A stretch of DNA of 64,000 bases from Struthio camelus (taxonomy: Eukaryota > Chordata > Aves > Struthioniformes > Struthionidae): the NCBI RefSeq assembly GCF_040807025.1, contig NC_090982.1, positions 89,866,963 to 89,930,962 of the forward strand, given 5' to 3'. Position numbers and translations under genes: made by a program. The number at the start of each line of letters is the position of its first letter. Position 1 is the first letter of the stretch. Positions 1 to 30,404 of this stretch are shown here, in pieces. The notes under the pieces are model-generated. The model saw only the letters and a program-made list of their open reading frames with translations. It was not told the DNA's origin and made no database searches.

Positions 1-3000
1 CCAGAAATCGGTACTGCAGCCCGAAAAATCGGTACTGCAGGCGAAGCGGGGCGCATGCGCACTGGGTTTCGGCGTGGCTCGTTGGTGCCCTCGGCTGGCC
101 AGAAATCGGTACTGCAGGCGAAGCGGGGCGCATGCGCAGTGGTTTCGGCGTGGCTCGTTGGTGCCCTCGGCTGGCCAGAAATCGGTACTGCAGGCGAAGC
201 GGGGCGCAGGCGCAGTGGTTTCGGCGTGGCTCGTTGGTGCCCTCGGCTGGCCAGAAATCGGTACTGCAGGCGAAGCGGGGCGCAGGCGCACTGGGTTTCG
301 GCGTGGCTCGTTGGTGCCCTCGGCTGGCCAGAAATCGGTACTGCAGGCGAAGCGGGGCGCATGCGCACTGGGTTTCGGCGTGGCTCGTGGGTGCCCTCGG
401 CTGGCCAGAAATCGGTACTGCAGCCCGAAAAAACGGTCCTGCAGGCGAAGCGGGGCGCATGCGCACTGGGTTTCGGCGTGGGTCGTTGGTGCCCTCGGCT
501 GGCCAGAAATCGGTACTGCAGGCGAAGCGGGGCGCATGCGCAGTGGTTTCGGCGTGGCTCGTTGGTGCCCTCGGCTGGCCAGAAATCGGTACTGCAGGCG
601 AAGCGGGGCGCAGGCGCAGTGGTTTCGGCGTGGCTCGTTGGTGCCCTCGGCTGGCCAGAAATCGGTACTGCAGGCGAAGCGGGGCGCAGGCGCACTGGGT
701 TTCGGCGTGGCTCGTTGGTGCCCTCGGCTGGCCAGAAATCGGTACTGCAGGCGAAGCGGGGCGCATGCGCACTGGGTTTCGGCGTGGCTCGTGGGGGCCC
801 TCGGCTGGCCAGAAATCGGTACTGCAGCCCGAAAAAACGGTCCTGCAGGCGAAGCGGGGCGCATGCGCACTGGGTTTCGGCGTGGGTCGTTGGTGCCCTC
901 GGCTGGCCAGAAATCGGTACTGCAGGCGAAGCGGGGCGCATGCGCAGTGGTTTCGGCGTGGCTCGTTGGTGCCCTCGGCTGGCCAGAAATCGGTACTGCA
1001 GGCGAAGCGGGGCGCAGGCGCAGTGGTTTCGGCGTGGCTCGTTGGTGCCCTCGGCTGGCCAGAAATCGGTACTGCAGCGCGAAAAATCCGTACTGCAGGC
1101 GAAGCGGGGCGCATGCGCACTGGGTTTCGGTGTGGCTCGTGGGTGCCCTCGGCTGGCCAGAAATCGGTACTGCAGGCGAAGCGGGGCGCAGGCGCAGTGG
1201 TTTCGGCGTGGCTCGTTGGTGCCCTCGGCTGGCCAAAAATCGGTACTGCAGGCGAAGCGGGGTGCATGCGCAGTGGTTTCGGCGTGGCTCGTTGGTGCCC
1301 TCGGCTGGCCAGAAATCGGTACTGCAGGCGAAGCGGGGCGCAGGCGCAGTGGTTTCGGCGTGGCTCGTTGGTGCCCTCGGCTGGCCAGAAATCGGTACTG
1401 CAGGCGAAGCGGGGCGCAGGCGCAGTGGTTTCGGCGTGGCTCGTTGGTGCCCTCGGCTGGCCAGAAATCGGTACTGCAGGCGAAGCGGGGCGCAGGCGCA
1501 GTGGTTTCGGCGTGGCTCGTTGGTGCCCTCGGCTGGCCAGAAATCGGTACTGCAGGCGAAGCGGGGCGCATGCGCAGTAGTTTCGGCGTGGCTCGTGGGT
1601 GCCCTCGGCTGGCCAGAAATCGGTACTGCAGCCCGAAAAATCGGTACTGCAGGCGAAGCGGGGCGCATGCGCACTGGGTTTCGGCGTGGCTCGTTGGTGC
1701 CCTCGGCTGGCCAGAAATCGGTACTGCAGCCCGAAAAATCGGTACTGCAGGCGAAGCGGGGCGCATGCGCACTGGGTTTCGGCGTGGCTCGTGGGTGCCC
1801 TCGGCTGGCCAGAAATCGGTACTGCAGGCGAAGCGGGGCGCATGCGCAGTGGTTTCGGCGTGGCTCGTTGGTGCCCTCGGCTGGCCAGAAATTGGTACTG
1901 CAGGCGAAGCGGGGCGCAGGCGCAGTGGTTTCGGCGTGGCTCGTTGGTGCCCTCGGCTGGCCAGAAATCGGTACTGCAGGCGAAGCGGGGCGCATGCGCA
2001 CTGGGTTTCGGCGTGACTCGTGGGTGCCCTCGGCTGGCCAGAAATCGGTACTGCAGGCGAAGCGGGGCGCATGCGCACTGGGTTTCGGCGTGGCTCGTTG
2101 GTGCCCTCGGCTGGCCAGAAATCGGTACTGCAGGCGAAGCGGGGCGCAGGCGCAGTGGTTTCGGCGTGGCTCGTTGGTGCCCTCGGCTGGCCAGAAATCG
2201 GTACTGCAGGCGAAGCGGGGCGCAGGCGCAGTGGTTTCGGCGTGACTCGTGGGTGCCCTCGGCTGGCCAGAAATCGGTACTGCAGGCGAAGCGGGGCGCA
2301 TGCGCAGTGGTTTCGGCGTGGCTCGTGGGTGCCCTCGGCTGGCCAGAAATCGGTACTGCAGGCGAAGCGGGGCGCAGGCGCACTGGGTTTCGGCGTGGCT
2401 CGTTGGTGCCCTCGGCTGGCCAGAAATCGGTACTGCAGGCGAAGCGGGGCGCATGCGCACTGGGTTTCGGCGTGGCTCGTGGGTGCCCTCGGCTGGCCAG
2501 AAATCGGTACTGCAGCCCGAAAAAACGGTCCTGCAGGCGAAGCGGGGCGCATGCGCACTGGGTTTCGGCGTGGCTCGTTGGTGCCCTCGGCTGGCCAGAA
2601 ATCGGTACTGCAGGCGAAGCGGGGCGCATGCGCAGTGGTTTCGGCGTGGCTCGTTGGTGCCCTCGGCTGGCCAGAAATCGGTACTGCAGGCGAAGCGGGG
2701 CGCAGGCGCAGTGGTTTCGGCGTGGCTCGTTGGTGCCCTCGGCTGGCCAGAAATCGGTACTGCAGGCGAAGCGGGGCGCATGCGCACTGGGTTTCGGCGT
2801 GGCTCGTTGGTGCCCTCGGCTGGCCAGAAATCGGTACTGCAGGCGAAGCGGGGCGCATGCGCACTGGGTTTCGGCGTGGCTCGTGGGTGCCCTCGGCTGG
2901 CCAGAAATCGGTACTGCAGCACGAAAAATCGGTACTGCAGGCGAAGCGGGGCGCATGCGCACTGGGTTTCGGCGTGGCTCGTTGGTGCCCTCGGCTGGCC

Positions 3001-6000
3001 AGAAATCGGTACTGCAGGCGAAGCGGGGCGCAGGCGCAGTGGTTTCGGCGTGGCTCGTTGGTGCCCTCGGCTGGCCAGAAATCGGTACTGCAGGCGAAGC
3101 GGGGCGCAGGCGCACTGGGTTTCGGCGTGGCTCGTTGGTGCCCTCGGCTGGCCAGAAATCGGTACTGCAGGCGAAGCGGGGCGCAGGCGCAGTGGTTTCG
3201 GCGTGGCTCGTTGGTGCCCTCGGCTGGCCAGAAATCGGTACTGCAGGCGAAGCGGGGCGCAGGCGCACTGGGTTTCGGCGTGGCTCGTGGGTGCCCTCGG
3301 CTGGCCAGAAATCGGTACTGCAGCCCGAAAAAACGGTCCTGCAGGCGAAGCGGGGCGCATGCGCACTGGGTTTCGGCGTGGCTCGTTGGTGCCCTCGGCT
3401 GGCCAGAAATCGGTACTGCAGCGCGAAAAATCGGTACTGCAGGCGAAGCGGGGCGCAGGCGCAGTGGTTTCGGCGTGGCTCGTGGGTGCCCTCGGCTGGC
3501 CAGAAATCGGTACTGCAGGCGAAGCGGGGCGCATGCGCAGTGGTTTCGGCGTGGCTCGTTGGTGCCCTCGGCTGGCCAGAAATCGGTCCTGCAGCGCGAA
3601 AAATCGGTACTGCAGGCGAAGCGGGGCGCATGCGCACTGGGTTTCGGCGTGACTCGTGGGTGCCCTCGGCTGGCCAGAAATCGGTACTACAGCCCGAAAA
3701 ATCGGTACTGCAGGCGAAGCGGGGCGCAGGCGCAGTGGTTTCGGCGTGGCTCGTTGGTGCCCTCGGCTGGCCAGAAATCGGTCCTGCAGCGCGAAAAATC
3801 CGTACTGCAGGCGAAGCGGGGCGCATGCGCACTGGGTTTCGGTGTGGCTCGTTGGTGCCCTCGGCTGGCGAGAAATCGGTACTGCAGGCGAAGCGGGGCG
3901 CATGCGCAGTGGTTTCGGCGTGGCTCGTTGGTGCCCTCGGCTGGCCAAAAATCGGTACTGCAGGCGAAGCGGGGTGCATGCGCAGTGGTTTCGGCGTGGC
4001 TCGTTGGTGCCCTCGGCTGGCCAGAAATCGGTACTGCAGGCGAAGCGGGGCGCAGGCGCAGTGGTTTCGGCGTGGCTCGTTGGTGCCCTCGGCTGGCGAG
4101 AAATCGGTACTGCAGGCGAAGCGGGGCGCAGGCGCAGTGGTTTCGGCGTGGCTCGTTGGTGCCCTCGGCTGGCCAGAAATCGGTACTGCAGGCGAAGCGG
4201 GGCGCATGCGCACTGGGTTTCGGCGTGACTCGTGGGTGCCCTCGGCTGGCCAGAAATCGGTACTGCAGCCCGAAAAATCGGTACTGCAGGCGAAGCGGGG
4301 CGCATGCGCACTGGGTTTCGGCGTGGCTCGTTGGTGCCCTCGGCTGGCCAGAAATCGGTACTGCAGCCCGAAAAATCGGTACTGCAGGCGAAGCGGGGCG
4401 CATGCGCACTGGGTTTCGGCGTGGCTCGTGGGTGCCCTCGGCTGGCCAGAAATCGGTACTGCAGGCGAAGCGGGGCGCATGCGCAGTGGTTTCGGCGTGG
4501 CTCGTTGGTGCCCTCGGCTGGCCAGAAATCGGTACTGCAGGCGAAGCGGGGCGCAGGCGCAGTGGTTTCGGCGTGGCTCGTTGGTGCCCTCGGCTGGCCA
4601 GAAATCGGTACTGCAGGCGAAGCGGGGCGCAGGCGCACTGGGTTTCGGCGTGGCTCGTTGGTGCCCTCGGCTGGCCAGAAATCGGTACTGCAGGCGAAGC
4701 GGGGCGCATGCGCACTGGGTTTCGGCGTGGCTCGTGGGTGCCCTCGGCTGGCCAGAAATCGGTACTGCAGCCCGAAAAAACGGTCCTGCAGGCGAAGCGG
4801 GGCGCATGCGCACTGGGTTTCGGCGTGGCTCGTTGGTGCCCTCGGCTGGCCAGAAATCGGTACTGCAGGCGAAGCGGGGCGCATGCGCACTGGGTTTCGG
4901 CGTGGCTCGTTGGTGCCCTCGGCTGGCCAGAAATCGGTACTGCAGGCGAAGCGGGGCGCAGGCGCAGTGGTTTCGGCGTGGCTCGTGGGTGCCCTCGGCT
5001 GGCCAGAAATCGGTACTGCAGGCGAAGCGGGGCGCATGCGCACTGGGTTTCGGCGTGGCTCGTTGGTGCCCTCGGCTGGCCAGAAATCGGTACTGCAGCG
5101 CGAAAAATCGGTACTGCAGGCGAAGCGGGGCGCATGCGCAGTGGTTTCGGCGTGGCTCGTGGGTGCCCTCGGCTGGCCAGAAATCGGTACTGCAGGCGAA
5201 GCGGGGCGCATGCGCAGTGGTTTCGGCGTGGCTCGTTGGTGCCCTCGGCTGGCCAGAAATCGGTACTGCAGCGCGAAAAATCGGTACTGCAGGCGAAGCG
5301 GGGCGCATGCGCACTGGGTTTCGGCGTGGCTCGTGGGGGCCCTCGGCTGGCCAGAAATCGGTACTACAGCCCGAAAAATCGGTACTGCAGGCGAAGCGGG
5401 GCGCAGGCGCAGTGGTTTCGGCGTGGCTCGTTGGTGCCCTCGGCTGGCCAGAAATCGGTACTGCAGCGCGAAAAATCCGTACTGCAGGCGAAGCGGGGCG
5501 CATGCGCACTGGGTTTCGGTGTGGCTCGTTGGTGCCCTAGGCTGGCGAAAAATCAGTACTGCAGGCGAAGCGGGGCGCATGCGCAGTGGTTTCGGCGTGG
5601 CTCGTTGGTGCCCTCGGCTGGCCAAAAATCGGTACTGCAGGCGAAGCGGGGTGCATGCGCAGTGGTTTCGGCGTGGCTCGTTGGTGCCCTCGGCTGGCCA
5701 GAAATCGGTACTGCAGGCGAAGCGGGGCGCAGGCGCAGTGGTTTCGGCGTGGCTCGTTGGTGCCCTCGGCTGGCCAGAAATCGGTACTGCAGGCGAAGCG
5801 GGGCGCATGCGCACTGGGTTTCGGCGTGGCTCGTTGGTGCCCTCGGCTGGCCAGAAATCGGTACTGCAGGCGAAGCGGGGCGCATGCGCAGTGGTTTCGG
5901 CGTGGCTCGTGGGTGCCCTCGGCTGGCCAGAAATCGGTACTGCAGGCGAAGCGGGGCGCAGGCGCAGTGGTTTCGGCGTGGCTCGTTGGTGCCCTCGGCT

Positions 6001-9000
6001 GGCCAGAAATCGGTACTGCAGGCGAAGCGGGGCGCATGCGCAGTGGTTTCGGCGTGGCTCGTGGGTGCCCTCGGCTAGCCAGAAATCGGTACTGCAGGCG
6101 AAGCGGGGCGCAGGCGCAGTGGTTTCGGCGTGGCTCGTTGGTGCCCTCGGCTGGCCAGAAATCGGTACTGCAGGCGAAGCGGGGCGCATGCGCAGTGGTT
6201 TCGGCGTGGCTCGTTGGTGCCCTCGGCTGGCCAGAAATCGGTACTGCAGGCGAAGCGGGGCGCAGGCGCAGTGGTTTCGGCGTGGCTCGTTGGTGCCCTC
6301 GGCTGGCCAGAAATCGGTCCTGCAGGCGAAGCGGGGCGCATGCGCAGTGGTTTCGGCGTGGCTCGTTGGTGCCCTCGGCTGGCCAGAAATCGGTACTGCA
6401 GGCGAAGCGGGGCGCAGGCGCAGTGGTTTCGGCGTGGCTCGTTGGTGCCCTCGGCTGGCCAGAAATCGGTACTGCAGGCGAAGCGGGGCGCAGGCGCAGT
6501 GGTTTCGGCGTGGCTCGTTGGTGCCCTCGGCTGGCCAGAAATCGGTACTGCAGGCGAAGCGGGGCGCAGGCGCAGTGGTTTCGGCGTGGCTCGTTGGTGC
6601 CCTCGGCTGGCCAGAAATCGGTACTGCAGGCGAAGCGGGGCGCAGGCGCAGTGGTTTCGGCGTGGCTCGTTGGTGCCCTCGGCTGGCCAGAAATCGGTAC
6701 TGCAGGCGAAGCGGGGCGCAGGCGCAGTGGTTTCGGCGTGGCTCGTTGGTGCCCTCGGCTGGCCAGAAATCGGTACTGCAGGCGAAGCGGGGCGCAGGCG
6801 CAGTGGTTTCGGCGTGGCTCGTTGGTGCCCTCGGCTGGCGAAAAATCGGTACTGCAGGCGAAGCGGGGCGCATGCGCACTGGGTTTCGGCGTGGCTCGTT
6901 GGTGCCCTCGGCTGGCCAGAAATCGGTACTGCAGGCGAAGCGGGGCGCATGCGCAGTGGTTTCGGCGTGGCTCGTGGGTGCCCTCGGCTGGCCAGAAATC
7001 GGTACTGCAGGCGAAGCGGGGCGCAGGCGCAGTGGTTTCGGCGTGGCTCGTTGGTGCCCTCGGCTGGCCAGAAATCGGTACTGCAGCGCGAAAAATCGGT
7101 CCTGCAGGCGAAGCGGGGCGCATGCGCAGTGGTTTCGGCGTGGCTCGTTGGTGCCCTCGGCTAGCCAGAAATCGGTACTGCAGGCGAAGCGGGGCGCAGG
7201 CGCAGTGGTTTCGGCGTGGCTCGTTGGTGCCCTCGGCTGGCCAGAAATCGGTACTGCAGGCGAAGCGGGGCGCATGCGCAGTGGTTTCGGCGTGGCTCGT
7301 TGGTGCCCTCGGCTGGCCAGAAATCGGTACTGCAGGCGAAGCGGGGCGCAGGCGCAGTGGTTTCGGCGTGGCTCGTTGGTGCCCTCGGCTGGCCAGAAAT
7401 CGGTCCTGCAGGCGAAGCGGGGCGCATGCGCAGTGGTTTCGGCGTGGCTCGTTGGTGCCCTCGGCTGGCCAGAAATCGGTACTGCAGGCGAAGCGGGGCG
7501 CATGCGCAGTGGTTTCGGCGTGGCTCGTTGGTGCCCTCGGCTGGCCAGAAATCGGTACTGCAGGCGAAGCGGGGCGCAGGCGCAGTGGTTTCGGCGTGGC
7601 TCGTTGGTGCCCTCGGCTGGCCAGAAATCGGTACTGCAGGCGAAGCGGGGCGCAGGCGCAGTGGTTTCGGCGTGGCTCGTGGGTGCCCTCGGCTGGCCAG
7701 AAATCGGTACTGCAGGCGAAGCGGGGCGCAGGCGCAGTGGTTTCGGCGTGGCTCGTTGGTGCCCTCGGCTGGCGAAAAATCGGTACTGCAGGCGAAGCGG
7801 GGCGCATGCGCACTGGGTTTCGGCGTGGCTCGTTGGTGCCCTCGGCTGGCCAGAAATCGGTACTGCAGGCGAAGCGGGGCGCATGCGCAGTGGTTTCGGC
7901 GTGGCTCGTGGGTGCCCTCGGCTGGCCAGAAATCGGTACTGCAGGCGAAGCGGGGCGCAGGCGCACTGGGTTTCGGCGTGGCTCGTTGGTGCCCTCGGCT
8001 GGCCAGAAATCGGTACTGCAGCGCGAAAAATCGGTCCTGCAGGCGAAGCGGGGCGCATGCGCAGTGGTTTCGGCGTGGCTCGTTGGTGCCCTCGGCTAGC
8101 CAGAAATCGGTACTGCAGGCGAAGCGGGGCGCAGGCGCAGTGGTTTCGGCGTGGCTCGTTGGTGCCCTCGGCTGGCCAGAAATCGGTACTGCAGGCGAAG
8201 CGGGGCGCATGCGCAGTGGTTTCGGCGTGGCTCGTTGGTGCCCTCGGCTGGCCAGAAATCGGTACTGCAGGCGAAGCGGGGCGCAGGCGCAGTGGTTTCG
8301 GCGTGGCTCGTTGGTGCCCTCGGCTGGCCAGAAATCGGTCCTGCAGGCGAAGCGGGGCGCATGCGCAGTGGTTTCGGCGTGGCTCGTGGGGGCCCTCGGC
8401 TGGCCAGAAATCGGTACTGCAGGCGAAGCGGGGCGCATGCGCAGTGGTTTCGGCGTGGCTCGTTGGTGCCCTCGGCTGGCCAAAAATCGGTACTGCAGGC
8501 GAAGCGGGGCGCAGGCGCAGTGGTTTCGGCGTGGCTCGTTGGTGCCCTCGGCTGGCCAGAAATCGGTACTGCAGGCGAAGCGGGGCGCAGGCGCAGTGGT
8601 TTCGGCGTGGCTCGTTGGTGCCCTCGGCTGGCCAGAAATCGGTACTGCAGGCGAAGCGGGGCGCAGGCGCAGTGGTTTCGGCGTGGCTCGTTGGTGCCCT
8701 CGGCTGGCCAGAAATCGGTACTGCAGGCGAAGCGGGGCGCAGGCGCAGTGGTTTCGGCGTGGCTCGTTGGTGCCCTCGGCTGGCGAAAAATCGGTACTGC
8801 AGGCGAAGCGGGGCGCATGCGCACTGGGTTTCGGCGTGGCTCGTTGGTGCCCTCGGCTGGCCAGAAATCGGTACTGCAGGCGAAGCGGGGCGCATGCGCA
8901 GTGGTTTCGGCGTGGCTCGTGGGTGCCCTCGGCTGGCCAGAAATCGGTACTGCAGGCGAAGCGGGGCGCAGGCGCACTGGGTTTCGGCGTGGCTCGTTGG

Positions 9001-10078
9001 TGCCCTCGGCTGGCCAGAAATCGGTACTGCAGCGCGAAAAATCGGTCCTGCAGGCGAAGCGGGGCGCATGCGCAGTGGTTTCGGCGTGGCTCGTTGGTGC
9101 CCTCGGCTAGCCAGAAATCGGTACTGCAGGCGAAGCGGGGCGCAGGCGCAGTGGTTTCGGCGTGGCTCGTTGGTGCCCTCGGCTGGCCAGAAATCGGTAC
9201 TGCAGGCGAAGCGGGGCGCATGCGCAGTGGTTTCGGCGTGGCTCGTTGGTGCCCTCGGCTGGCCAGAAATCGGTACTGCAGGCGAAGCGGGGCGCAGGCG
9301 CAGTGGTTTCGGCGTGGCTCGTTGGTGCCCTCGGCTGGCCAGAAATCGGTCCTGCAGGCGAAGCGGGGCGCAGGCGCAGTGGTTTCGGCGTGGCTCGTTG
9401 GTGCCCTCGGCTGGCCAGAAATCGGTACTGCAGGCGAAGCGGGGCGCAGGCGCAGTGGTTTCGGCGTGGCTCGTTGGTGCCCTCGGCTGGCCAGAAATCG
9501 GTACTGCAGGCGAAGCGGGGCGCATGCGCAGTGGTTTCGGCGTGGCTCGTTGGTGCCCTCGGCTAGCCAGAAATCGGTACTGCAGGCGAAGCGGGGCGCA
9601 GGCGCAGTGGTTTCGGCGTGGCTCGTTGGTGCCCTCGGCTGGCCAGAAATCGGTACTGCAGGCGAAGCGGGGCGCAGGCGCAGTGGTTTCGGCGTGGCTC
9701 GTTGGTGCCCTCGGCTGGCCAGAAATCGGTCCTGCAGGCGAAGCGGGGCGCATGCGCAGTGGTTTCGGCGTGGCTCGTGGGGGCCCTCGGCTGGCCAGAA
9801 ATCGGTACTGCAGGCGAAGCGGGGCGCATGCGCAGTGGTTTCGGCGTGGCTCGTTGGTGCCCTCGGCTGGCCAAAAATCGGTACTGCAGGCGAAGCGGGG
9901 CGCAGGCGCAGTGGTTTCGGCGTGGCTCGTTGGTGCCCTCGGCTGGCCAGAAATCGGTCCTGCAGGCGAAGCGGGGCGCAGGCGCAGTGGTTTCGGCGTG
10001 GCTCGTTGGTGCCCTCGGCTGGCCAGAAATCGGTACTGCAGGCGAAGCGGGGCGCAGGCGCAGTGGTTTCGGCGTGGC
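1..10078. repeat. 76-bp NRF1-motif satellite, array A
   Basis: Head-to-tail tandem array that begins before the window and holds about 125-130 units. The commonest unit is 76 bp, about 67% GC with nine CpGs. In order it carries CTGCAG, GCGAAGCGGGGCGC, ATGCGCAGTGG, TTTCGGCGTGGCTCG, TTGGTGCCCTCGGC and TGGCCAGAAATCGGTA. Variants are CAGTGG versus CACTGGG (77 bp), CATGCG versus CAGGCG, CGTTGG versus CGTGGG, GCCAGAAAT versus GCGAGAAAT, GCGAAAAAT or GCCAAAAAT, and a 21-bp insertion beginning CAGCCCGAAAAATCGG or CAGCGCGAAAAATCGG. Every unit has a PstI site and nearly every unit the TGGCCA site. The common unit contains no stop triplet on either strand, which explains the open frames of up to about 2,000 codons. 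Each unit includes an RCGCANGCGY match, the known NRF1 consensus. The array ends at the junction GGCGTGGC/GAAGCGGGG. Confidence 0.97.
6076..10078. repeat. Higher-order repeat part of array A
   Basis: The rare variant GGCTAGCCAG, whose TAG stop ends the plus-strand frames, recurs at 6076, 7162, 8097, 9108 and 9564. After each occurrence the same order of unit variants follows: mostly CAGGCG, CATGCG, CAGGCG, then a unit with ATCGGTCCTG. Spacings are 1086, 935, 1011 and 456 bp. These equal 14, 12, 13 and 6 units of 76 bp plus, in the first three, one 21-bp insertion and one or two 77-bp units. This is what unequal exchange of multi-unit blocks leaves behind, and it marks this end of the array as more recently homogenised than 1-6 kb. 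Confidence 0.8.
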
Positions 10079-10264
10079 GAAGCGGGGCGCAGGTGCACTT
10101 GCTCGTCGGCGCTCGTTCGTGCCCTCGGCTGGCGAAAAGTGGGTACTGCAGGCGAAGCGGGGCGCATGCGCGGTGCTCGAGAGCCGGGCCCCCCGCGCTC
10201 CCGCGCCCCGTTCGCGATCGGCGCATGCGCGGAGGGCGGCGCATGCGCGGCGGCGGGCAGCAGC
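10079..10264 (+). promoter_or_regulatory. CpG-island promoter with terminal satellite unit
   Basis: The satellite passes straight into a CpG island. The last, diverged unit (about 10079-10165) reads GAAGCGGGGCGCAGGTGCAC, then a changed middle, then GGCTGGCGAAAAGTGGGTAC. NRF1-type cores GCGCATGCGC follow at 10162-10171, 10221-10230 and 10239-10248, just upstream of an ATG at 10265. NRF1 sites close to start sites are typical of CpG-island promoters of widely expressed genes (established knowledge). That this one is active is inferred. An almost identical copy lies at 30405-30590. It suggests the satellite grew from, or was captured by, a promoter-proximal NRF1 site. Confidence 0.6.
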
Positions 10265-10354
10265 ATGGCGGCGCGCGGGGACGGAGTTTTCGCTGGGGCG
10301 GCGGCGGGTGCGGGCCGAGGCCGCCCGGAGTCGGAGATCTGGGGGCCCCGGTGA
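10265..10354 (+). CDS. Possible first coding exon or short uORF (29 codons)
   Basis: ATG in the context CAGCAGCATGGCGG opens a 29-codon Ala/Gly/Arg-rich frame starting MAARGDGVFAG and ending at TGA 10352-10354. A splice donor could lie at 10351 (CCCCG/GTGAGG), leaving phase 2, or at 10356 (GTGAGC, past the stop). The ATGGCGGC start inside an NRF1-rich CpG island is typical of first exons. However, I could not join this frame to any downstream exon-like block without a stop, so it may be a short upstream frame or not translated. Product not recognised. The copy at 30591-30680 has the same reading. Confidence 0.28.
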   Translation: MAARGDGVFAGAAAGAGRGRPESEIWGPR

Positions 10355-10760
10355 GGTGAGCGCGTCCCCTCGGGCGGCCGCGGGCGTCGGGCGGTTTCTG
10401 CCCGCGGGGGCCGTCGCTGCGTGGAGGCGGAGGTGCGGGGCGAGATTTGGGGAGGGGGCTCGTGCCTGGCGCCGCGCCGCGCCGGCAGCGCGGCCCAGGG
10501 TCTGCCGGGAGCGCGGGTTTGACCGTCCGTTTGCCGTGTGTCGCCCTCAGGGCCCCGGTTCCTCCCTGGCGCGGCCGGGGCGGGCGCTCGCCCCTGCGGA
10601 GGCGGCCGGGAGGAGCGGCGAGGCTGGCGGGCCCCGGAGCGGCGCTGGGCGGACGGCTCCCGTCGCGGCAGGCCTGCCCGAGGGTGCTGGTAAGTCGCAA
10701 GGAAGCTTAAAGCTACCGGACCAAACCGACTTAAGGTCACTTTGAGCCAGGTGCAGTTAG
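10351..10760 (+). other. CpG island body with candidate splice donors
   Basis: Very GC- and CpG-rich sequence after the ATG. A possible acceptor lies at 10550 (TGTCGCCCTCAG) and a strong-looking donor at 10690 (GTGCTG/GTAAGT). The CpG density drops after about 10700. It is best read as the 5' exon and start of intron of a CpG-island gene. The frame through 10689 that would join the open block at 14128 (phase 1) has no ATG inside the island, so a noncoding first exon is more likely. Repeated at 30677-31086. Confidence 0.45.
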
Positions 10761-17662: not shown

Positions 17663-17879
17663 CAGTTGCTTTACTCTTTGCACTCGTGTCTGTGGTTCCT
17701 GCCGTCGCTTTGCCTGAAGATGATGCCCAGGGGAGGAGGTTACACATTGTGTCTGGGATTGGGAGCTGGTCCCCACATCCTTTGTTCTTGGGGGTCCCTG
17801 CGGTTCCCAGGGACCCCAGTGCTGTTCACAGGGCTCGGGGTAACTTCCCTTGCATTGCCTCGACCCTTGGGGCTCTTGG

Positions 17880-19330: not shown

Positions 19331-19653
19331 CGTGGACCAGCAAAGGAGAGGGGGGAGTAGCGCCTGGTAGCCCAGTCGCTATGGCATCGCTGGCGCTAGC
19401 AGGCCCGCGAGGTCTGTGTGAAGCCTCACCTGCCTGTCTGGAGCTTTATTTTGGTCTGTTTACCCGGAGTAACCGGCGAGGCCTAAAATGAGAATTTAGG
19501 ATGGCTAGATGGGTTACCTGTGACCCGACCTGTCCTCGCCTTGCTTTGCTGCCTAGCAGCAAGCAATAACGGGAACTTGGGACCCCAGAATAAAAACTGT
19601 TGCAGTGCTTAAGGGAGGACCTGCGTTTGCCCAGGTTAGGGAACCGTAATGAA

Positions 19654-19690
19654 AGCTTGGGGGGGGGGGGAGCGGGAGGGGGGAGAGGAA
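19654..19690 (+). other. G-run, possible quadruplex
   Basis: A run of about twelve G followed by GCGGGAGGGGGGAGAGG gives four or more G-tracts within 37 bases, sufficient for a G-quadruplex. It lies 60 bases upstream of the exon-like block at 19,742, where it would be intronic. Confidence 0.55.
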
Positions 19691-19741
19691 GCTCCAAAAC
19701 AGGAACCTCCCGGTGACCTTGGTGGTTTGATTCATTTGCAG

Positions 19742-19825
19742 AATAGTGTTCCGAGGGCCAGCAACCTGAGGAGGAGCCGCTCGACCCGTTTTGTTGATTT
19801 CGGTGATGCTGTTTTAAGGAAGCAC
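19742..19825 (+). CDS. Candidate 84-nt internal coding exon, gene unknown
   Basis: A clean acceptor (TTTGATTCATTTGCAG) and donor (AAGCAC/GTAAGT) bound an 84-nt block. It is 28 whole codons with no stop in the frame NSVPRASNLRRSRSTR, then FVDFGDAVLRKH. The basic, Ser/Arg-rich start followed by an acidic-hydrophobic piece looks more protein-like than anything else in the 19-23 kb stretch. The surrounding 19,330-19,990 sequence is absent from the paralogous interval at 14.3 kb, so this is an insertion relative to that copy. I found no partner exon in the window and do not recognise the protein. It may be an exon of a larger gene or a chance match. Confidence 0.3.
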
Positions 19826-19989
19826 GTAAGTACAGAAGAGCTCTGGGAGGGTTTTCAAACAAGACGGGGAAGAGCGTGGGAAAGCTAGGTGCCGTGAGTA
19901 CGGAAGTTGTTAAGGGCTGAGAGAATTTGGGGGGTTAAGCGTGCGCACGTGACGGTCTGAAAGGGGCTGATGCACAAGCAGTAGTAAAA

Positions 19990-20690
19990 GGGCGTGACGG
20001 AGTGCAAGGTTCCTCCCCGGTGTGGGCCCGTGCGTGCGCCCTCGCTCTCGCGGACGCAGGCGCTCTGGAGGCGCAGGGATTCGGGCAAGCAGGCCCACAG
20101 GCGGACTTGGGGAAAACGGTGTGCAGAGCGCTCGGCGGGTGAGCGGGGCTGGAGTGGGTCGAGGGCTGTCCCGGGCGGGCTGCCTGGGTCCATCCGGTTC
20201 TGCTCCCTGTCCCTCTGTCCAGCTCTCCATCTTTCTCTTTCTTTCCCCATAGCTCTGTCCGGTGCCCCATCCCTTTGTTTAACTACTCGTTGCTCTGCCC
20301 AGCTCCCCATCCCTCTTGTACTCTTCCCGTCCCTCTGTCAATACCTGCTTCCCTCTGTCTGCTTCTCCATCCCTCTGACTGGCTCCCTATCGCTCTGTCC
20401 AGCTCTTCGTCGTCCTCTTTCTCTCCCGATCCCACTACCTGCCTGCTGTCCCTCTGCCTGGCTCCCCATCCCTCCACCACCCCCCCCAACTGCTCTGTCT
20501 ATCTGCCTCTTCGTACCTCTCTTTGCCCCTTCAGCCCTCCATCCACCTCTCCAGTCTTCTCTGTTTCCATCCCTCTGTTCAGCTCCTCATCCATCTATTT
20601 GCCGCCTCCTTATCCCTCTTTTCCCCTGTACCATCCCATCTCTCTGTCCGACTTCCCCTCTCTCTTTTGGGGGGTTTAGTACCTGTTTTA
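19990..20690 (+). repeat. Diverged copy of the 14.36-15.0 kb segment
   Basis: GGGCCCGTGCGTGCGCCCTC, ACTCTGGAGG-like and AAGCAGGCCCACA blocks match block B at 14,360-14,460. The donor CGGCGG/GTGAGC at about 20,139 is kept, but the upstream CTTGCAG acceptor has become CTCGCGGAC. The pyrimidine-rich minisatellite follows at about 20,190-20,680. A third, still weaker copy of the GTGCCCTCGCTC...CTGGAGG block occurs at 22,880-22,990. Confidence 0.7.
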
Positions 20691-20699
20691 GCAGACAAT

Positions 20700-22100
20700 C
20701 GCGTGTCCCTTTAGGCCCCAGGAAGCAGAAAGTTCTGACCTGACAGCAAAGTATTTGGTCTTTTTAACGCTCTTGCGGCTGAAGGTGACTCCTAATGAAA
20801 AGCAATGAGAATTCTGAGGATTCACTGGAAACGTAAAAGACAGTATCTGCCCTTTTTAAAAGGCTGTGTGCTTCCGCTAATAATACCTGTAGTAATCAAG
20901 CCACTAGATTTTTCTGACAATAAGAGCCTTTAAGCTGCGATCGCTACTCGAAAAGTCCAGATATTTTAGAAACTGAACGAGCCTTCTGAGCTTGCTGACT
21001 GCAGTACCTCGAAAGATGATCAGAGTGCTGATGTTTTCATGCTTTAGTGTGGTAGAGATGCTCTGTGCAAACATCCCTTGTGTTTAATCTTCAAAACTGC
21101 GCAGACTGTCACGGAGCTCTCTTTTGACTATCTACTTTGCGTAACAAACAGAAAGGCAGGAGGTTGACAGTGCTAAATGAGTAAGGTCATTGCTTGTTTA
21201 GGGGTTGCAAATTTTATGGAATTTTGTCCTTTTAAATCTCATCTAGAATATGCTTGCAAAAAATCCCTGGGAAGAAAACAAGGAGTATAAGCAGCTTTTG
21301 AATATTATTAGCAATACTTACACGTTCTGGATGGGTTCTTAGGGTCCCCCATGGTCTTCTGCCCTCCCCATTACCCCCAAATTTACCCATTTTGCAGTGT
21401 TTTGGCACTTATTTTGCTCTTTCTTGTCCCGAAGCAGGTCAGGGTTTGGTGTGGACAGAGGGGGGAAGGAGCCAGCTGTGGGTAAATGGGCCCTGGATGG
21501 CATCGCGGGGACACGGCGAATCCTGGCACAGCCCATCTTCAGCACGGGGAGAGGCCGGAGTGCTGCCGTGATGAGTGCTGAGAAAGGTACCTCTCTTTGG
21601 ATTATGTGCACCCCAGAGCCCACCTTCTGGCCTTTCATTCTCCCCCGATCCCTCCTGTCAAGTATTTGTGCTCTGCGGATGCCTGAGTTTGGCTTTTTGT
21701 GACTTGTAGGTTCCTCCGCTGAGGTTCTTTTTGCCCCTGAGGTCCTCCCTTTCACCATCTTGTCCCCACAGAACCCTGAATTGTTTCTTCTCCCTCGCCC
21801 AGCCCACAACATCCCTTCCTTTTCCTTTTCTTTTTTGCTGCCCCTCGATCCTTCCTTTTGCAATTTTGCACCACCAGTTCACTCTGTTAAGCTCTTCTCT
21901 CTTTTGGGCTTTTTGCACCCCCCACCCCCCACCCCCTTTGTAAAGCTTTTTTTGTGCCGCTTACAAGCTTCTGGCTTTTTTTCCCCTGAGAAGCCTTCCT
22001 TCTGGCTTTGTGTGTCAGCACCCTCCCCTTTTTGAATAAAGCAGAGATTAAAGGCAAACTCGGTATCTCTTTATGCAGCTGCAACCCTTTGGAGGGGAAG
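20700..22100. other. No gene seen; AATAAA at 22,035
   Basis: AT-balanced, mostly unique sequence to about 21,700, then a C/T-rich run to 22,030. AATAAA at 22,035-22,040 is followed by a GTATCTCTTT stretch and could be a polyadenylation signal of a plus-strand transcript or a relic of a mobile element. No coding frame with a recognisable product. Confidence 0.45.
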
Positions 22101-23600
22101 CAAATACGTTATTGTGGTTTGTAGTATTTCTGGGCTAACTCTGGGGAAATCCTCATCACAGTTTGGATTTTTTGTTGTTGTTTCTATAAGTTCGTTGCTT
22201 TGAAAGTTTGAAACTAGTATTCGTTTGGCTTACTGCCTTACTGTCATAACTGAGCGTAAAGCAGAGATTGTGTTGCCATTGCATATGACCTCCCTCATAT
22301 GGTGCTTGCGTTCATATACGTGTGTTCTCCCCAGGAGTACTCTTGCCTTTTCCTTTCCTTTAGTAAACAAACGCCTTTCTGAGCCAATACCGAGCAACAC
22401 GGTGGATGTGCTTCTAGCGCTAACGTCGCGTCGCAGGAGGCAGCTGAGAGCAGTCGATAAGCCGGTGCTCTAGACATGCAAAGGCAGGAAGAAGCGGACT
22501 AGCTATTGAGCTTCCCTCGAGAGCAGAGGAAGAGGAGAAGAAACCCAGGGGGCGGTCATACGCCCGCTGACGATTCCGGAGGCTTTGCCTTGCAATGCGT
22601 TTCTCCTGGTAGGCGGCAGCACTCATTGCCCGTGGCGGGTAAGGGCCGGAACCACCTTGCGCTGAGGGCTCAGCAGAACCAGAGAGGCGAGGGTGTCCCT
22701 GGGGTGGCTGCGGGTGCCTGGATTTCTCCGGCCCACCTCAAGGCATGCGTTGCGGGGAGAAAAGGGTGCGGGCTTTCAGGGGCCTGGCAGTGCTCTGCTC
22801 CGTGCGGGCACAGGGCAGGGTCTGCCCTGAACACATGTTTGCCTCTCCCTGTCTTTGTTTTAATTCCTGCCTTTAGGGCTGAGGTTCCTCCCCAGAGCAG
22901 ACTTGTACGTGTGCCCTCGCTCGTGTAGATGCAGATGGCCTGGAGGTGTGGGGAGGCAGGCTGTCCCGCGAGAAGGACTTTTGCGCGGCGTCCCGGGGAG
23001 GATAGCTGTGATGTACCTCGTGCACCCAAGGGTGTTGGTAAGCGACAAGATAACAAGTGGCTGTTTCCTGGTCACTCCCCTCACTAGAGAAAAATCGATT
23101 TACAGATTGGCTTTCACATGGAGAGAGAAACAGTACACCTTTCCTCAGGTCTGGTTGGGGTTTCACAGTGTGCCTGCACTAACACGTGGTCGTTGTCAGA
23201 GACGGTTTAGACGGGTTGCCTGCAGAGAGGTAGGAAAGGCATTACCTTTCGTGGACAGTGCTGTGGTGGGCAGAGCTACGGACGAAGAGGTGTGAGAGCG
23301 AGGTGCCTGAGCCTTAAAACTGACTGGAAGGGACAGGATTCAAGGCCGGTTGGTGCACAGCACACAGCGCAACGCCAGGCTCATTATAAAGGTACTGTAA
23401 TTGGGGAAACGGCCCGCTGACAGAAGAAGAAAGGTTAAAGCTCTGTGTGAAATAAAGGGTCCTTCCCATCAGTGCTGAGGAAGAGGGTCGCGTTTCTTAG
23501 AGCAGCATATCCGTCGTTTTTCTGGTAGCAGCAGAGCACCGCAGTGGGAGGTTCTGGAAGAGTCAGGAGCAGAACTGGCAGGAGGCTCTTTTCCCTGTCC
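22101..23600. other. No gene seen; degenerate paralogous sequence
   Basis: Contains the weak third copy of block B (22,880-22,990) and short splice-like strings (for example GTCAG before 23,200 and GTAGG at about 23,230). Nothing adds up to a supported exon pair or known protein. Confidence 0.45.
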
Positions 23601-23941
23601 GGATGGAAAAACGGCTGTAAGCACGCTTGCCAGAAACCGAGGAGGCCGAGGACGAGGCCCGGCTGGGGCCCTTGCCTTGGGCCCTGACTGCGGGCACCCG
23701 GCGCGCCCTGCCACCCGAGGCCTGCTCGCCCCAGGCGCGACTGCCACCGCCACCACCCCTCGGCGCTGCTGCGCCCCGGTGCTGCACCGCCGCCGAGACA
23801 CGGGGTGCTCGTGAGGTCCCCGCCACCGTCTCCTCCTGCAGGACACAGGTGCCCGGGGGGAGGGTACGAAAGGGTCGGGGCGGCCCGACCGGAGGGTGCG
23901 GGGAGCGGCGGCGGCCGCTGCCGGCCTAGGCCAGCGGGGTC
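23600..23941. promoter_or_regulatory. CpG island left of array B
   Basis: GC-rich, CpG-dense sequence (CCCGGCGCGCCCTGCCACCC, GCGGCGGCGGCCGCTGCCGG) immediately before the first NRF1 core of the decayed satellite edge. It may be a promoter in its own right, in either direction. No start codon or exon was supported. Confidence 0.5.
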
Positions 23942-24309
23942 GCGCATGCGCACTGGATCAGACCGGCTCGCGGCTGCGGCAAGCGGAGTGGCGCATGCGC
24001 ATTGGGGGGGCGACCCGCTTACTCCCTGCTGCCCTCAAGTGACTACGAACCGGTACTGCAGGCAGGGGATTAACGCATGCGCACTGCTCCAGATGTGCTC
24101 CATGCTGCCCTCGGGTGATGCCACCCCAATAGTGCAGCCAGCCGACGAACGCATGCGTCCTGGACGCATCGGTTCCTTGGTGCCCCTCGAGCGATGAAAG
24201 CCTGCCAGCCAACCAGCCGCCTCGCGCATGCGCGCCGCCCCGACACTGCTCCCTGCGGCCCTCAGCTACGAACAGCGTAGTACTGCAGGCAGCCGCAGCG
24301 CGCAGGCGC
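23942..24309. repeat. Decayed left edge of array B with conserved NRF1 cores
   Basis: Cores fitting RCGCANGCGY lie at 23942 (GCGCATGCGC), 23991 (same), 24073 (ACGCATGCGC), 24149 (ACGCATGCGT), 24224 (GCGCATGCGC) and 24300 (GCGCAGGCGC). Steps are 49, 82, 76, 75 and 76 bp. Between the cores only fragments of the 76-bp unit remain (CGGTACTGCAGGC, TGCCCTCG, GGTGCCC), so the unit is recognisable mainly by its period. These are the oldest satellite units in the window. Confidence 0.85.
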
Positions 24310-27300
24310 ACTTGCTCGGCGTGGCTCGCTGGTGCCCTCGGCTGGCCAGAAATCGGTACTGCAGCCCGAAAAATCAGTACTGCAGCCGAAGCGGGGCGCA
24401 TGCGCAGTGGTTTCGGCGTGACCCGTGGGTGCCCTCGGCTGGCCAGAAATCGGTACTGCAGGCGAAGCGGGGCGCAGGCGCAGTGGTTTCGGCGTGGCTC
24501 GTTGGTGCCCTCGGCTGGCGAGAAATCGGTACTGCAGGCGAAGCGGGGCGCATGCGCAGTGGTTTCGGCGTGGCTCGTTGGTGCCCTCGGCTAGCCAGAA
24601 ATCGGTACTGCAGGCGAAGCGGGGCGCATGCGCACTGGGTTTCGGCGTGGCTCGTGGGTGCCCTCGGCTGGCCAGAAATCGGTACTGCAGGCGAAGCGGG
24701 GCGCAGGCGCACTGGGTTTCGGCGTGGCTCGTTGGTGCCCTCGGCTGGCCAGAAATCGGTACTGCAGGCGAAGCGGGGCGCAGGCGCAGTGGTTTCGGCG
24801 TGGCTCGTTGGTGCCCTCGGCTGGCGAGAAATCGGTACTGCAGGCGAAGCGGGGCGCAGGCGCAGTGGTTTCGGCGTGGCTCGTTGGTGCCCTCGGCTGG
24901 CCAGAAATCGGTACTGCAGGCGAAGCGGGGCGCATGCGCAGTGGTTTCGGCGTGGCTCGTTGGTGCCCTCGGCTGGCCAGAAATCGGTACTGCAGGCGAA
25001 GCGGGGCGCAGGCGCAGTGGTTTCGGCGTGACCCGTGGGTGCCCTCGGCTGGCCAGAAATCGGTACTGCAGGCGAAGCGGGGCGCAGGCGCAGTGGTTTC
25101 GGCGTGGCTCGTTGGTGCCCTCGGCTGGCCAGAAATCGGTACTGCAGGCGAAGCGGGGCGCATGCGCAGTGGTTTCGGCGTGGCTCGTTGGTGCCCTCGG
25201 CTGGCCAGAAATCGGTACTGCAGGCGAAGCGGGGCGCATGCGCAGTGGTTTCGGCGTGGCTCGTTGGTGCCCTCGGCTGGCCAGAAATCGGTACTGCAGG
25301 CGAAGCGGGGCGCAGGCGCAGTGGTTTCGGCGTGACTCGTGGGTGCCCTCGGCTGGCCAGAAATCGGTACTGCAGGCGAAGCGGGGCGCAGGCGCACTGG
25401 GTTTCGGCGTGGCTCGTTGGTGCCCTCGGCTGGCCAGAAATCGGTACTGCAGGCGAAGCGGGGCGCAGGCGCAGTGGTTTCGGCGTGGCTCGTGGGTGCC
25501 CTCGGCTGGCCAGAAATCGGTACTGCAGGCGAAGCGGGGCGCAGGCGCAGTGGTTTCGGCGTGGCTCGTGGGTGCCCTCGGCTGGCCAGAAATCGGTACT
25601 GCAGGCGAAGCGGGGCGCATGCGCAGTGGTTTCGGCGTGGCTCGTTGGTGCCCTCGGCTGGCCAGAAATCGGTACTGCAGCCCGAAATATCGGTACTGCA
25701 GGCGAAGCGGGGCGCATGCGCAGTGGTTTCGGCGTGGCTCGTTGGTGCCCTCGGCTGGCCAGAAATCGGTACTGCAGCCCGAAAAATCAGTACTGCAGGC
25801 GAAGCGGGGCGCATGCGCAGTGGTTTCGGCGTGGCTCGTTGGTGCCCTCGGCTGGCCAGAAATCGGTACTGCAGGCGAAGCGGGGCGCAGGCGCAGTGGT
25901 TTCGGCGTGGCTCGTTGGTGCCCTCGGCTGGCCAGAAATCGGTACTGCAGGCGAAGCGGGGCGCAGGCGCAGTGGTTTCGGCGTGGCTCGTTGGTGCCCT
26001 CGGCTGGCGAGAAATCGGTACTGCAGGCGAAGCGGGGCGCATGCGCAGTGGTTTCGGCGTGGCTCGTTGGTGCCCTCGGCTGGCCAGAAATCGGTACTGC
26101 AGGCGAAGCGGGGCGCAGGCGCAGTGGTTTCGGCGTGGCTCGTGGGTGCCCTCGGCTGGCCAGAAATCGGTACTGCAGGCGAAGCGAGGCGCATGCGCAG
26201 TGGTTTCGGCGTGACTCGTGGGTGCCCTCGGCTGGCCAGAAATCGGTACTGCAGGCGAAGCGGGGCGCATGCGCAGTGGTTTCGGCGTGGCTCGTTGGTG
26301 CCCTCGGCTGGCCAGAAATCGGTACTGCAGGCGAAGCGGGGCGCATGCGCAGTGGTTTCGGCGTGGCTCGTTGGTGCCCTCGGCTGGCGAAAAATCGGTA
26401 CTGCAGGCGAAGCGGGGTGCATGCGCAGTGGTTTCGGCGTGGCTCATTGGTGCCCTCGGCTGGCCAGAAATCGGTACTGCAGGCGAAGCGGGGCGCATGC
26501 GCAGTGGTTTCGGCGTGGCTCGTTGGTGCCCTCGGCTGGCCAGAAATCGGTACTGCAGCCCGAAAATTCGGTACTGCAGGCGAAGCGGGGCGCAGGCGCA
26601 GTGGTTTCGGCGTGGCTCGTTGGTGCCCTCGGCTGGCGAAAAATCGGTACTGCAGGCGAAGCGGGGCGCATGCGCAGTGGTTTCGGCGTGGCTCGTTGGT
26701 GCCCTCGGCTGGCCAGAAATCGGTACTGCAGGCGAAGCGGGGCGCATGCGCAGTGGTTTCGGCGTGGGTCGTTGGTGCCCTCGGCTGGCCAGAAATCGGT
26801 ACTGCAGGCGAAGCGGGGCGCATGCGCAGTGGTTTCGGCGTGGCTCGTGGGTGCCCTCGGCTGGCCAGAAATCGGTACTGCAGCCCGAAAAATCGGTACT
26901 GCAGCCGAAGCGGGGCGCAGGCGCAGTGGTTTCGGCGTGGCTCGTTGGTGCCCTCGGCTGGCCAGAAATCGGTACTGCAGGCGAAGCGGGGCGCATGCGC
27001 AGTGGTTTCGGCGTGGCTCGTTGGTGCCCTCGGCTGGCGAAAAATCGGTCCTGCAGGCGAAGCGGGGCGCATGCGCAGTGGTTTCGGCGTGGCTCGTTGG
27101 TGCCCTCGGCTGGCCAGAAATCGGTACTGCAGCGCGAAAAATCGGTCCTGCAGGCGAAGCGGGGCGCAGGCGCAGTGGTTTCGGCGTGGCTCGTTGGTGC
27201 CCTCGGCTGGCCAGAAATCGGTACTGCAGGCGAAGCGGGGCGCAGGCGCAGTGGTTTCGGCGTGGCTCATTGGTGCCCTCGGCTGGCCAGAAATCGGTAC

Positions 27301-30300
27301 TGCAGGCGAAGGGGGGCGCATGCGCAGTGGTTTCGGCGTGACTCGTTGGTGCCCTCGGCTGGCCAGAAATCGGTACTGCAGGCGAAGCGGGGCGCATGCG
27401 CACTGGGTTTCGGCGTGGCTCGTTGGTGCCCTCGGCTGGCGAAAAATCGGTACTGCAGGCGAAGCGGGGCGCATGCGCAGTGGTTTCGGCGTGGCTCGTT
27501 GGTGCCCTCGGCTGGCGAGAAATCGGTACTGCAGGCGAAGCGGGGCGCAGGCGCAGTGGTTTCGGCGTGGCTCGTTGGTGCCCTCGGCTGGCCAGAAATC
27601 GGTACTGCATTCGAAGCGGGGCGCATGCGCAGTGGTTTCGGCGTGGCTCGTTGGTGCCCTCGGCTGGCCAGAAATCGGTACTGCAGCGCGAAAAATCGGT
27701 ACTGCAGGCGAAGCGGGGCGCATGCGCAGTAGTTTCGGCGTGGCTCGTTGGTGCCCTCGGCTGGCGAAAAATCGGTACTGCAGGCGAAGCGGGGCGCATG
27801 CGCACTGGGTTTCGGCGTGGCTCGTTGGTGCCCTCGGCTGGCGAAAAATCGGTACTGCAGCCGAAGCGGGGCGCATGCGCAGTGGTTTCGGCGTGGCTCG
27901 TTGGTGCCCTCGGCTGGCCAGAAATCGGTACTGCAGGCGAAGCGGGGCGCATGCGCAGTGGTTTCGGCGTGACTCGTGGGTGCCCTCGGCTGGCCAGAAA
28001 TCGGTACTGCAGGCGAAGCGGGGCGCAGGCGCAGTGGTTTCGGCGTGGCTCGTTGGTGCCCTCGGCTGGCCAGAAATCGGTACTGCAGCGCGAAAAATCG
28101 GTCCTGCAGGCGAAGCGGGGCGCAGGCGCAGTGGTTTCGGCGTGGCTCGTTGGTGCCCTCGGCTGGCCAGAAATTGGTACTGCAGGCGAAGCGGGGCGCA
28201 TGCGCAGTGGTTTCGGCGTGGCTCGTTGGTGCCCTCGGCTGGCCAGAAATCGGTACTGCAGGCGAAGGGGGGCGCATGCGCAGTGGTTTCGGCGTGGCTC
28301 GTTGGTGCCCTCGGCTGGCCAGAAATCGGTACTGCAGGCGAAGCGGGGCGCATGCGTACTGGGTTTCGGCGTGGCTCGTTGGTGCCCTCGGCTGGCGAAA
28401 AATCGGTACTGCAGGCGAAGCGGGGCGCATGCGCAGTGGTTTCGGCGTGGCTCGTTGGTGCCCTCGGCTGGCCAGAAATCGGTACTGCAGGCGAAGCGGG
28501 GCGCAGGCGCAGTGGTTTCGGCGTGGCTCGTTGGTGCCCTCGGCTGGCCAGAAATCGGTACTGCAGGCGAAGCGGGGCGCATGCGCACTGGGTTTCGGCG
28601 TGGCTCGTGGGTGCCCTCGGCTGGCCAGAAATCGGTACTGCAGCCCGAAAAAACGGTCCTGCAGGCGAAGCGGGGCGCATGCGCACTGGGTTTCGGCGTG
28701 GCTCGTTGGTGCCCTCGGCTGGCCAGAAATCGGTACTGCAGGCGAAGCGGGGCGCAGGCGCAGTGGTTTCGGCGTGGCTCGTTGGTGCCCTCGGCTGGCC
28801 AGAAATCGGTACTGCAGGCGAAGCGGGGCGCATGCGCACTGGGTTTCGGCGTGGCTCGTTGGTGCCCTCGGCTGGCCAGAAATCGGTACTGCAGCGCGAA
28901 AAATCGGTACTGCAGGCGAAGCGGGGCGCAGGCGCAGTGGTTTCGGCGTGGCTCGTGGGTGCCCTCGGCTGGCCAGAAATCGGTACTGCAGGCGAAGCGG
29001 GGCGCAGGCGCAGTGGTTTCGGCGTGGCTCGTTGGTGCCCTCGGCTGGCCAGAAATCGGTACTGCAGCGCGAAAAATCGGTACTGCAGGCGAAGCGGGGC
29101 GCAGGCGCAGTGGTTTCGGCGTGGCTCGTTGGTGCCCTCGGCTGGCCAGAAATCGGTACTGCAGCCCGAAAATTCGGTGCTGCAGGCGAAGCGGGGCGCA
29201 TGCGCAGTGGTTTCGGCGTGGCTCGTTGGTGCCCTCGGCTAGCCAGAAATCGGTACTGCAGGCGAAGCGGGGCGCATGCGCAGTGGTTTCGGCGTGGCTC
29301 GTTGGTGCCCTCGGCTGGCGAGAAATCGGTACTGCAGGCGAAGCGGGGCGCAGGCGCAGTGGTTTCGGCGTGGCTCGTTGGTGCCCTCGGCTGGCCAGAA
29401 ATCGGTACTGCAGGCGAAGCGGGGCGCAGGCGCAGTGGTTTCGGCGTGGCTCGTGGGTGCCCTCGGCTGGCCAGAAATCGGTACTGCAGGCGAAGCGGGG
29501 CGCATGCGCAGTGGTTTCGGCGTGGCTCGTTGGTGCCCTCGGCTGGCCAGAAATCGGTACTGCAGCGCGAAAAATCGGTACTGCAGGCGAAGCGGGGCGC
29601 ATGCGCAGTAGTTTCGGCGTGGCTCGTTGGTGCCCTCGGCTGGCGAAAAATCGGTACTGCAGGCGAAGCGGGGCGCATGCGCAGTGGTTTCGGCGTGGCT
29701 CGTTGGTGCCCTCGGCTGGCCAAAAATCGGTACTGCAGGCGAAGCGGGGCGCAGGCGCAGTGGTTTCGGCGTGGCTCGTTGGTGCCCTCGGCTGGCCAGA
29801 AATCGGTACTGCAGGCGAAGCGGGGCGCAGGCGCAGTGGTTTCGGCGTGGCTCGTTGGTGCCCTCGGCTGGCCAGAAATCGGTACTGCAGGCGAAGCGGG
29901 GCGCAGGCGCAGTGGTTTCGGCGTGGCTCGTTGGTGCCCTCGGCTGGCCAGAAATCGGTACTGCAGGCGAAGCGGGGCGCATGCGCAGTGGTTTCGGCGT
30001 GGCTCGTTGGTGCCCTCGGCTGGCCAGAAATCGGTACTGCAGCGCGAAAAATCGGTACTGCAGGCGAAGCGGGGCGCATGCGCAGTAGTTTCGGCGTGGC
30101 TCGTTGGTGCCCTCGGCTGGCGAAAAATCGGTACTGCAGGCGAAGCGGGGCGCATGCGCAGTGGTTTCGGCGTGGCTCGTTGGTGCCCTCGGCTGGCCAA
30201 AAATCGGTACTGCAGGCGAAGCGGGGCGCAGGCGCAGTGGTTTCGGCGTGGCTCGTTGGTGCCCTCGGCTGGCCAGAAATCGGTACTGCAGGCGAAGCGG

Positions 30301-30404
30301 GGCGCAGGCGCAGTGGTTTCGGCGTGGCTCGTTGGTGCCCTCGGCTGGCCAGAAATCGGTACTGCAGGCGAAGCGGGGCGCAGGCGCAGTGGTTTCGGCG
30401 TGGC
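24310..30404. repeat. 76-bp NRF1-motif satellite, array B
   Basis: About 75-80 units of the same satellite as array A, in the same orientation, with the same set of variants including the 21-bp insertion (for example 24,360-24,380 and 28,640). GCGAAAAAT and GCGAGAAAT units are more frequent here than in A, and single changes such as GAAGGGGGGCGC (27,310; 28,265) mark local sub-blocks. It ends with the same GGCGTGGC/GAAGCGGGG junction as array A. The long open frames are again by-products of a unit with no stop triplets. Confidence 0.97.
29460..30404. repeat. 477-bp higher-order repeat at the end of array B
   Basis: The variant CGCAGTAGTTTCGG occurs at about 29,604 and 30,081, exactly 477 bp apart, and the units around both are in the same order (insertion unit, GCGAAAAAT unit, GCCAAAAAT unit, then GCCAGAAAT units). 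477 equals six 76-bp units plus one 21-bp insertion. Two nearly identical blocks side by side point to a recent unequal exchange next to the promoter. Confidence 0.85.

Follow-up and report, generated by a model that had tools for sequence, protein, structure and literature searches.

Why should a satellite carry a promoter-type binding site in nearly every repeat unit, and does such an array drive transcription or has it merely been copied? The question is raised by two arrays in the 64-kb stretch of DNA analysed here (the window), which consist of one common 76/77-bp unit in the same orientation and were called by Tandem Repeats Finder at 26-10078 and 24371-30404, the repeat being present already from base 1 of the window. 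A preliminary description placed an NRF1-type site in each ~76-bp unit, and this observation is confirmed: RCGCANGCGY, the word assigned to NRF1 in that description, is carried by 196 of the 200 full units, as judged by word match, and the other four have a common C-to-T change within the motif. At the free position of the motif, 110 units have T and 90 have G. Units were cut with a fuzzy anchor applied to 1-10180 and 23930-30520, which gave 240 pieces, namely 200 full units (76 bp in 152 and 77 bp in 48), 37 partial units of 21 bp that end before the NRF1 motif, and 3 end pieces. The spacing of the words is mostly 76/77 bp, and it is 97/98 bp where a 21-bp piece intervenes. The satellite had also been assigned the whole interval 1-30404; the two arrays occupy 1-10078 and 24371-30404, whereas 10079-23929 between them is not array. 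The 200 full units comprise 52 distinct sequences, and higher-order blocks, for instance a 21-bp piece with five units, recur in the arrays and point to recent local amplification. The features of the locus are listed in Table 1.

Table 1. Features of the locus, with positions and strand in the window (o/e, observed over expected).
Feature	Position	Strand	Description
NRF1-site satellite array, left copy	1-10078	+	76/77-bp units and 21-bp partial units; runs off the left end of the window
CpG island closing left array	10079-10750	+	Degenerate unit, then NRF1 words at 10162, 10221 and 10239; CpG o/e 1.10
Retroelement RNase H-like reading frame fragment	13043-13561	+	Between the arrays; Pfam RT_RNaseH_2, E 1.7e-13
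Second satellite	18540-18990	.	7 units of 57-65 bp; ETS (SCGGAAGY), ZNF143-like (ACTAYRNNNCCCR) and YY1-core (GCCATNTT) words
Old diverged relative of candidate exon 10551-10689	22877-23037	+	AG before, GTAAG after
Diverged edge of right array	23930-24370	+	Six NRF1-type words at 23942, 23991, 24073, 24149, 24224 and 24300
NRF1-site satellite array, right copy	24371-30404	+	75 RCGCANGCGY sites; CpG o/e 1.12
CpG island closing right array	30405-31076	+	Identical to 10079-10750; NRF1 words at 30488, 30547 and 30565
Second satellite, other locus copy	39730-40300	.	Nine 61-bp units; 9 ETS and 9 YY1-core words

The estimate of about 200 sites in 16 kb is borne out by 198 distinct positions in 16.1 kb of array (123 in 1-10078 and 75 in 24371-30404), but these go back to one unit that was copied. 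Outside the arrays, RCGCANGCGY is found six times in 23930-24370 and three times apiece in the two downstream CpG islands, a single further copy in 11001-23929 lies at 20054, and there is none in 31301-64000. With the palindromic form taken on both strands, 328 matches are counted versus a mean of 2.56 in 100 shuffles. Among 20000 dinucleotide shuffles of a single unit, 550 (2.8%) have the word, as do 122 of 20000 mononucleotide shuffles. Since the 200 copies derive from one unit with a chance of about 3%, copy number alone is weak evidence, and the comparison with shuffled units that had been put forward as a check yields modest evidence, despite the word in 196 of 200 real units. Constancy of the motif within the arrays was considered as a sign of selection and rejected, because in these young arrays the motif does not exceed many other positions of the unit in constancy; the copy number is thus by itself no evidence of selection. 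These findings suit a passive satellite, in which unequal exchange multiplied a promoter-derived 76-bp piece that held an NRF1 site by chance, giving a young array that NRF1 may bind but that is functionless itself. The units are young and homogenised, the higher-order blocks recur, the word has a chance of about 3% in a single unit, and the motif is not specially constant. We consider this explanation unlikely, although it deserves serious weight, and the observations that speak against it come from outside the young arrays.

The first of these is the diverged edge of the right array, which retains the NRF1 word intact more often than the other words that make up the unit. When all 76 ten-letter words of the unit were given equal degeneracy and counted in 23930-24345, 49 were absent, 19 occurred once and 6 twice. 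The NRF1 word alone, which is covered by two overlapping registers, occurred six times; in 2000 shuffles of the edge it has a mean of 0.16 and a maximum of 3. In an unmasked alignment of the edge, 51 of 54 motif positions match the unit, compared with 241 of 327 positions outside the motif. A first masked alignment gave 21 of 45 matching motif positions versus 236 of 345 outside, with the unit windows 5-14 and 57-66 near 88-89%, a weak result for the motif that is explained by its being placed a few bases off. In a further test, the ten-base windows were masked one after another; the place of each was predicted from the remaining alignment, and the best match was sought nearby. With a tolerance of 4 or 8 bp, the NRF1 window ranks first among the 76 and is intact in all five scored copies, whereas windows away from it are intact in at most two; without the copy nearest the array, the figures are four of four for the NRF1 window and at most one for the others. 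At zero shift, the NRF1 window drops to rank 38 of 76, and to 62 when the copy next to the array is left out, as the word is displaced by small insertions and deletions. The edge thus appears to have retained the NRF1 word and not its exact register, as expected for a binding site, a pattern that fits such a site and falls short of proof. Some of the edge sites may be those of the original promoter and not of decayed units; they are retained words either way.

The second is the CpG content. The CpG o/e is 1.09 and 1.12 in the left and right arrays (GC 0.67), 0.92 in the edge 23930-24345 and 1.10 in the island 10079-10750, and it is 0.35, 0.58, 0.28, 0.17 and 0.52 in five blocks of the flanks. 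NRF1-free minisatellites in the neighbourhood are CpG-rich too (1.41 at 52427-52575, 1.64 at 53906-54561 and 1.52 at 56380-56515), a point in favour of the passive satellite, since the CpG of the arrays may accordingly be explained by their youth alone. This does not apply to the old edge, where CpG is undecayed in spite of the divergence of the sequence. A mutational contrast goes in the same direction: in the duplicated flank 10751-18312, transitions are found at 29 of 333 CpG sites versus 41 of 3549 other G/C sites (7.8-fold), and in the array a transition variant is found at 5 of 18 CpG sites versus 6 of 33 other G/C sites (1.6-fold). The contrast between flank and array has a p value of 0.018 in what is a small test, and the flank differences used in it come mostly from 17001-18312. 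The stronger of these arguments is that CpG has not decayed in the old edge.

Ordinary NRF1-dependent CpG-island promoters carry RCGCANGCGY near the start, have undecayed CpG and contain one to few sites each. The arrays, with about 200 sites, are unlike them in number, and each array leads into a CpG island with the look of a promoter. The second and third NRF1 words of the islands (10221 and 10239, and 30547 and 30565 in the other copy) lie 18 bp apart, and the segment 10105-10299, within which a start position may be placed, has three NRF1 words versus a shuffle mean of 0.12, a number that none of 2000 shuffles reaches. An ATG follows at 10265 (context GCAGCATGGCGGC), candidate splice donors are found at 10351 and 10356 in the left island, and a candidate exon at 10551-10689 has an acceptor-like CTCAG ending at 10550 and a donor at 10690; the donor sequences are CCG/GTGAGG, GAG/GTGAGC and CTG/GTAAGT, the slash marking the predicted splice point. 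The frame opened by the ATG runs for 29 codons and meets its stop at the first donor, and the putative transcript from the island may be non-coding. No match to the G-quadruplex pattern is found in arrays and islands.

The retention of NRF1 words in the edge, the undecayed CpG and the presence at each array end of an island in which NRF1 words are joined by an ATG and candidate splice donors argue for a promoter. Hence, we hypothesize, with about an even chance of being right, that the satellite is the NRF1 box of a CpG-island promoter that has been amplified in tandem and acts as a promoter array. According to this model, the arrays would stay unmethylated in the germline, for which the CpG content is indirect evidence; NRF1, as its published sensitivity to methylation suggests, would bind many of the array sites when these are unmethylated, and its binding would help to hold the array unmethylated and open. 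The array would then serve as the proximal promoter or enhancer of a spliced transcript on the + strand, with starts predicted near 10.23 kb and 30.56 kb. Subsequently, the number of sites would have been altered by unequal exchange and local amplification, and the locus would have been duplicated at a distance of ~20.3 kb. Of the functions listed in the preliminary description, a very large promoter or enhancer, or open chromatin, is therefore partly supported, as it fits the NRF1 words of the edge, the undecayed CpG and the islands with their candidate donors. If the arrays act chiefly on chromatin, they could also be long nucleosome-poor and unmethylated elements at which meiotic breaks concentrate or which serve as boundaries, transcription being a by-product. 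The CpG-rich stretches with regular sites, 6 and at least 10 kb long, the duplication of the locus and the turnover of higher-order blocks would suit such an element, but the position of the arrays right before an island with splice donors suits a promoter better, and we judge a primary role in chromatin opening or recombination to be quite improbable.

If the promoter array is what the locus contains, satellite DNA would here be a graded promoter, in which unequal exchange shifts the number of sites, and transcription could differ between individuals and evolve fast. The locus would also suit a test of whether dense NRF1 sites alone keep long repeats unmethylated, because an array, its diverged edge, NRF1-free CpG-rich minisatellites and a CpG-poor flank all lie within one 64-kb stretch.

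The duplicated locus comprises 10079-18312 and 30405-38647, which match at 98.3% with an offset of ~20.3 kb. The alignment of the two copies has 137 differences, of which the first 7 kb holds just 23. The islands of the two copies are identical across 672 bp, and we considered whether the island had been specially conserved from copy to copy and rejected this, the first 7 kb having few differences anyway. The old diverged relative at 22877-23037 aligns with the candidate exon at a local score of 94, whereas 200 shuffles reach 52 at most, and it has both splice signals. Two segments, 14138-15027 and 19138-20668, are internal paralogs that are 75-85% alike and are followed by pyrimidine-rich repeats, as if partial duplications had repeatedly enlarged the locus.

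The nearest known design is that of human chromosome ends. The promoters of human TERRA are described as CpG-rich tandem repeats of 61, 29 and 37 bp with two putative NRF1 sites per 29-bp unit (PMC6600276, PMC12242772), so that the assertion that no satellite of this kind had been described cannot be upheld. The demethylating drug 5-aza-dC is reported to raise NRF1 binding at the TERRA repeats, and depletion of NRF1 to weaken the rise of TERRA after targeted demethylation; on the other side, and to be counted against the promoter array, the NRF1 ChIP signal at the repeats in human cells is well below that of an ordinary target promoter (PMC6600276). The arrays resemble the human promoter in having a CpG island over repeats and NRF1 sites in the repeat unit, here by word only. 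They are unlike it, in a comparison that covers unit length and word content, in their 76/77-bp unit, in their extent (6 kb for the right array, at least 10 kb for the left) and their duplication, and in leading into a CpG island with candidate splice donors. Among the matches listed by a search that reached part of the literature, no non-human NRF1-site satellite was found. The observed satellite appears to follow a design with a known human precedent, which counts in favour of the promoter logic, and the array may work like the TERRA design. It is not classed as a member of the TERRA group, because its unit is of another length and the 64-kb window shows TTAGGG or CCCTAA nowhere in runs of two or more units. 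The same two points, and islands that resemble the starts of spliced transcripts, make it improbable that the locus is subtelomeric and its arrays drive a telomeric-repeat RNA, although both designs have CpG-rich repeats whose unit contains NRF1 sites.

The titration of NRF1 away from other promoters had also been suggested. The arrays do offer about 200 sites at a single locus, but this is a small number compared with the thousands of NRF1 sites in a vertebrate genome, and the window lends no support to a sink for NRF1, which we regard as very improbable. Tandem repeats with sites for a regulatory protein can also be large, as in the DXZ4 macrosatellite, the unit of which is kilobase-scale. 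DXZ4 is described as bound by CTCF in one chromatin state (PMC3491370); the arrays are similar as a tandem repeat with putative sites for a regulatory protein, and they differ in having NRF1 words, whereas DXZ4 involves CTCF and the context of X inactivation.

The third observation that speaks against a passive origin is a second, unrelated satellite at the same locus, which is likewise made of promoter words. ETS, YY1, ZNF143-like and NRF1 words are typical of vertebrate CpG-island promoters, and the patterns that we take to be those of ETS, YY1 and ZNF143-like factors are far more frequent in the second satellite than expected. ETS words number 3 in 18540-18990 (0.05 expected) and 9 in 39730-40300 (0.09 expected), YY1 cores 4 and 9 (0.09 expected in each), where they are present in 4 of 7 and 9 of 9 units, and ZNF143-like words 2 (0.01 expected) and 0, respectively. 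The CpG o/e of the second satellite is 0.87-0.88. The locus thus holds two unrelated satellites that are both built from words typical of CpG-island promoters. In the mouse Peg3 imprinting control region, a tandem array of YY1 sites has been described (PMC4361396), which resembles the present locus as a tandem array for one factor beside promoters that is tied to the control of DNA methylation, and which is the nearest parallel to the second satellite. Unlike the Peg3 array, the second satellite pairs YY1 with ETS and ZNF143-like words, and the NRF1 array differs from it in sequence. With its unit of about 61 bp the second satellite has the length of one repeat of the human TERRA promoters, but its words are of the ETS, YY1 and ZNF143-like types. 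A more far-reaching reading, which we put forward tentatively as a possibility, is that both satellites (NRF1 on the one hand, and ETS, ZNF143-like and YY1 on the other) have expanded because selection favoured additional copies of the strongest words of CpG-island promoters, leading to kilobase-long promoters whose strength would vary with array length between individuals. If true, this would be a class of satellites that is defined by promoter function and not by centromere or telomere position.

Other sequences in the window give the surroundings of the locus. In addition to the retroelement fragment between the arrays, a similar frame is found at 33369-33884. Of the stop-to-stop frames with 80 aa or more, 260 lie mostly outside the arrays; 20 reading frames were chosen by hand for a Pfam scan, in which the retroelement fragment was the only one above the curated cut-off and no gene was recognised; the fragment has no Protein Data Bank match at E 0.01. 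Repeats of an rRNA intergenic spacer were considered and rejected, as the 64 kb contain no Rfam match at gathering scores, and the window contains no tRNA gene. A search for relatives of the unit gave no exact match in viral contigs, and one isolated match in a Microbacterium genome is taken as chance. A tandem repeat of ~245/489 bp at 44707-48974 is pyrimidine-biased and strongly depleted in CpG (o/e 0.20), and a 17-bp pyrimidine-rich repeat at 63296-64000 comprises 41.5 copies at 100% match and reaches the right end of the window. The region 52427-60930, which includes the CpG-rich minisatellites mentioned above, consists of consecutive similar stretches that each contain a different CpG-rich minisatellite (units of 23, 28 and 27 bp, and others), as if the minisatellite had been rebuilt in each stretch; three of these minisatellites have the common word GCGGCCGC (6, 23 and 4 copies) and are otherwise different.
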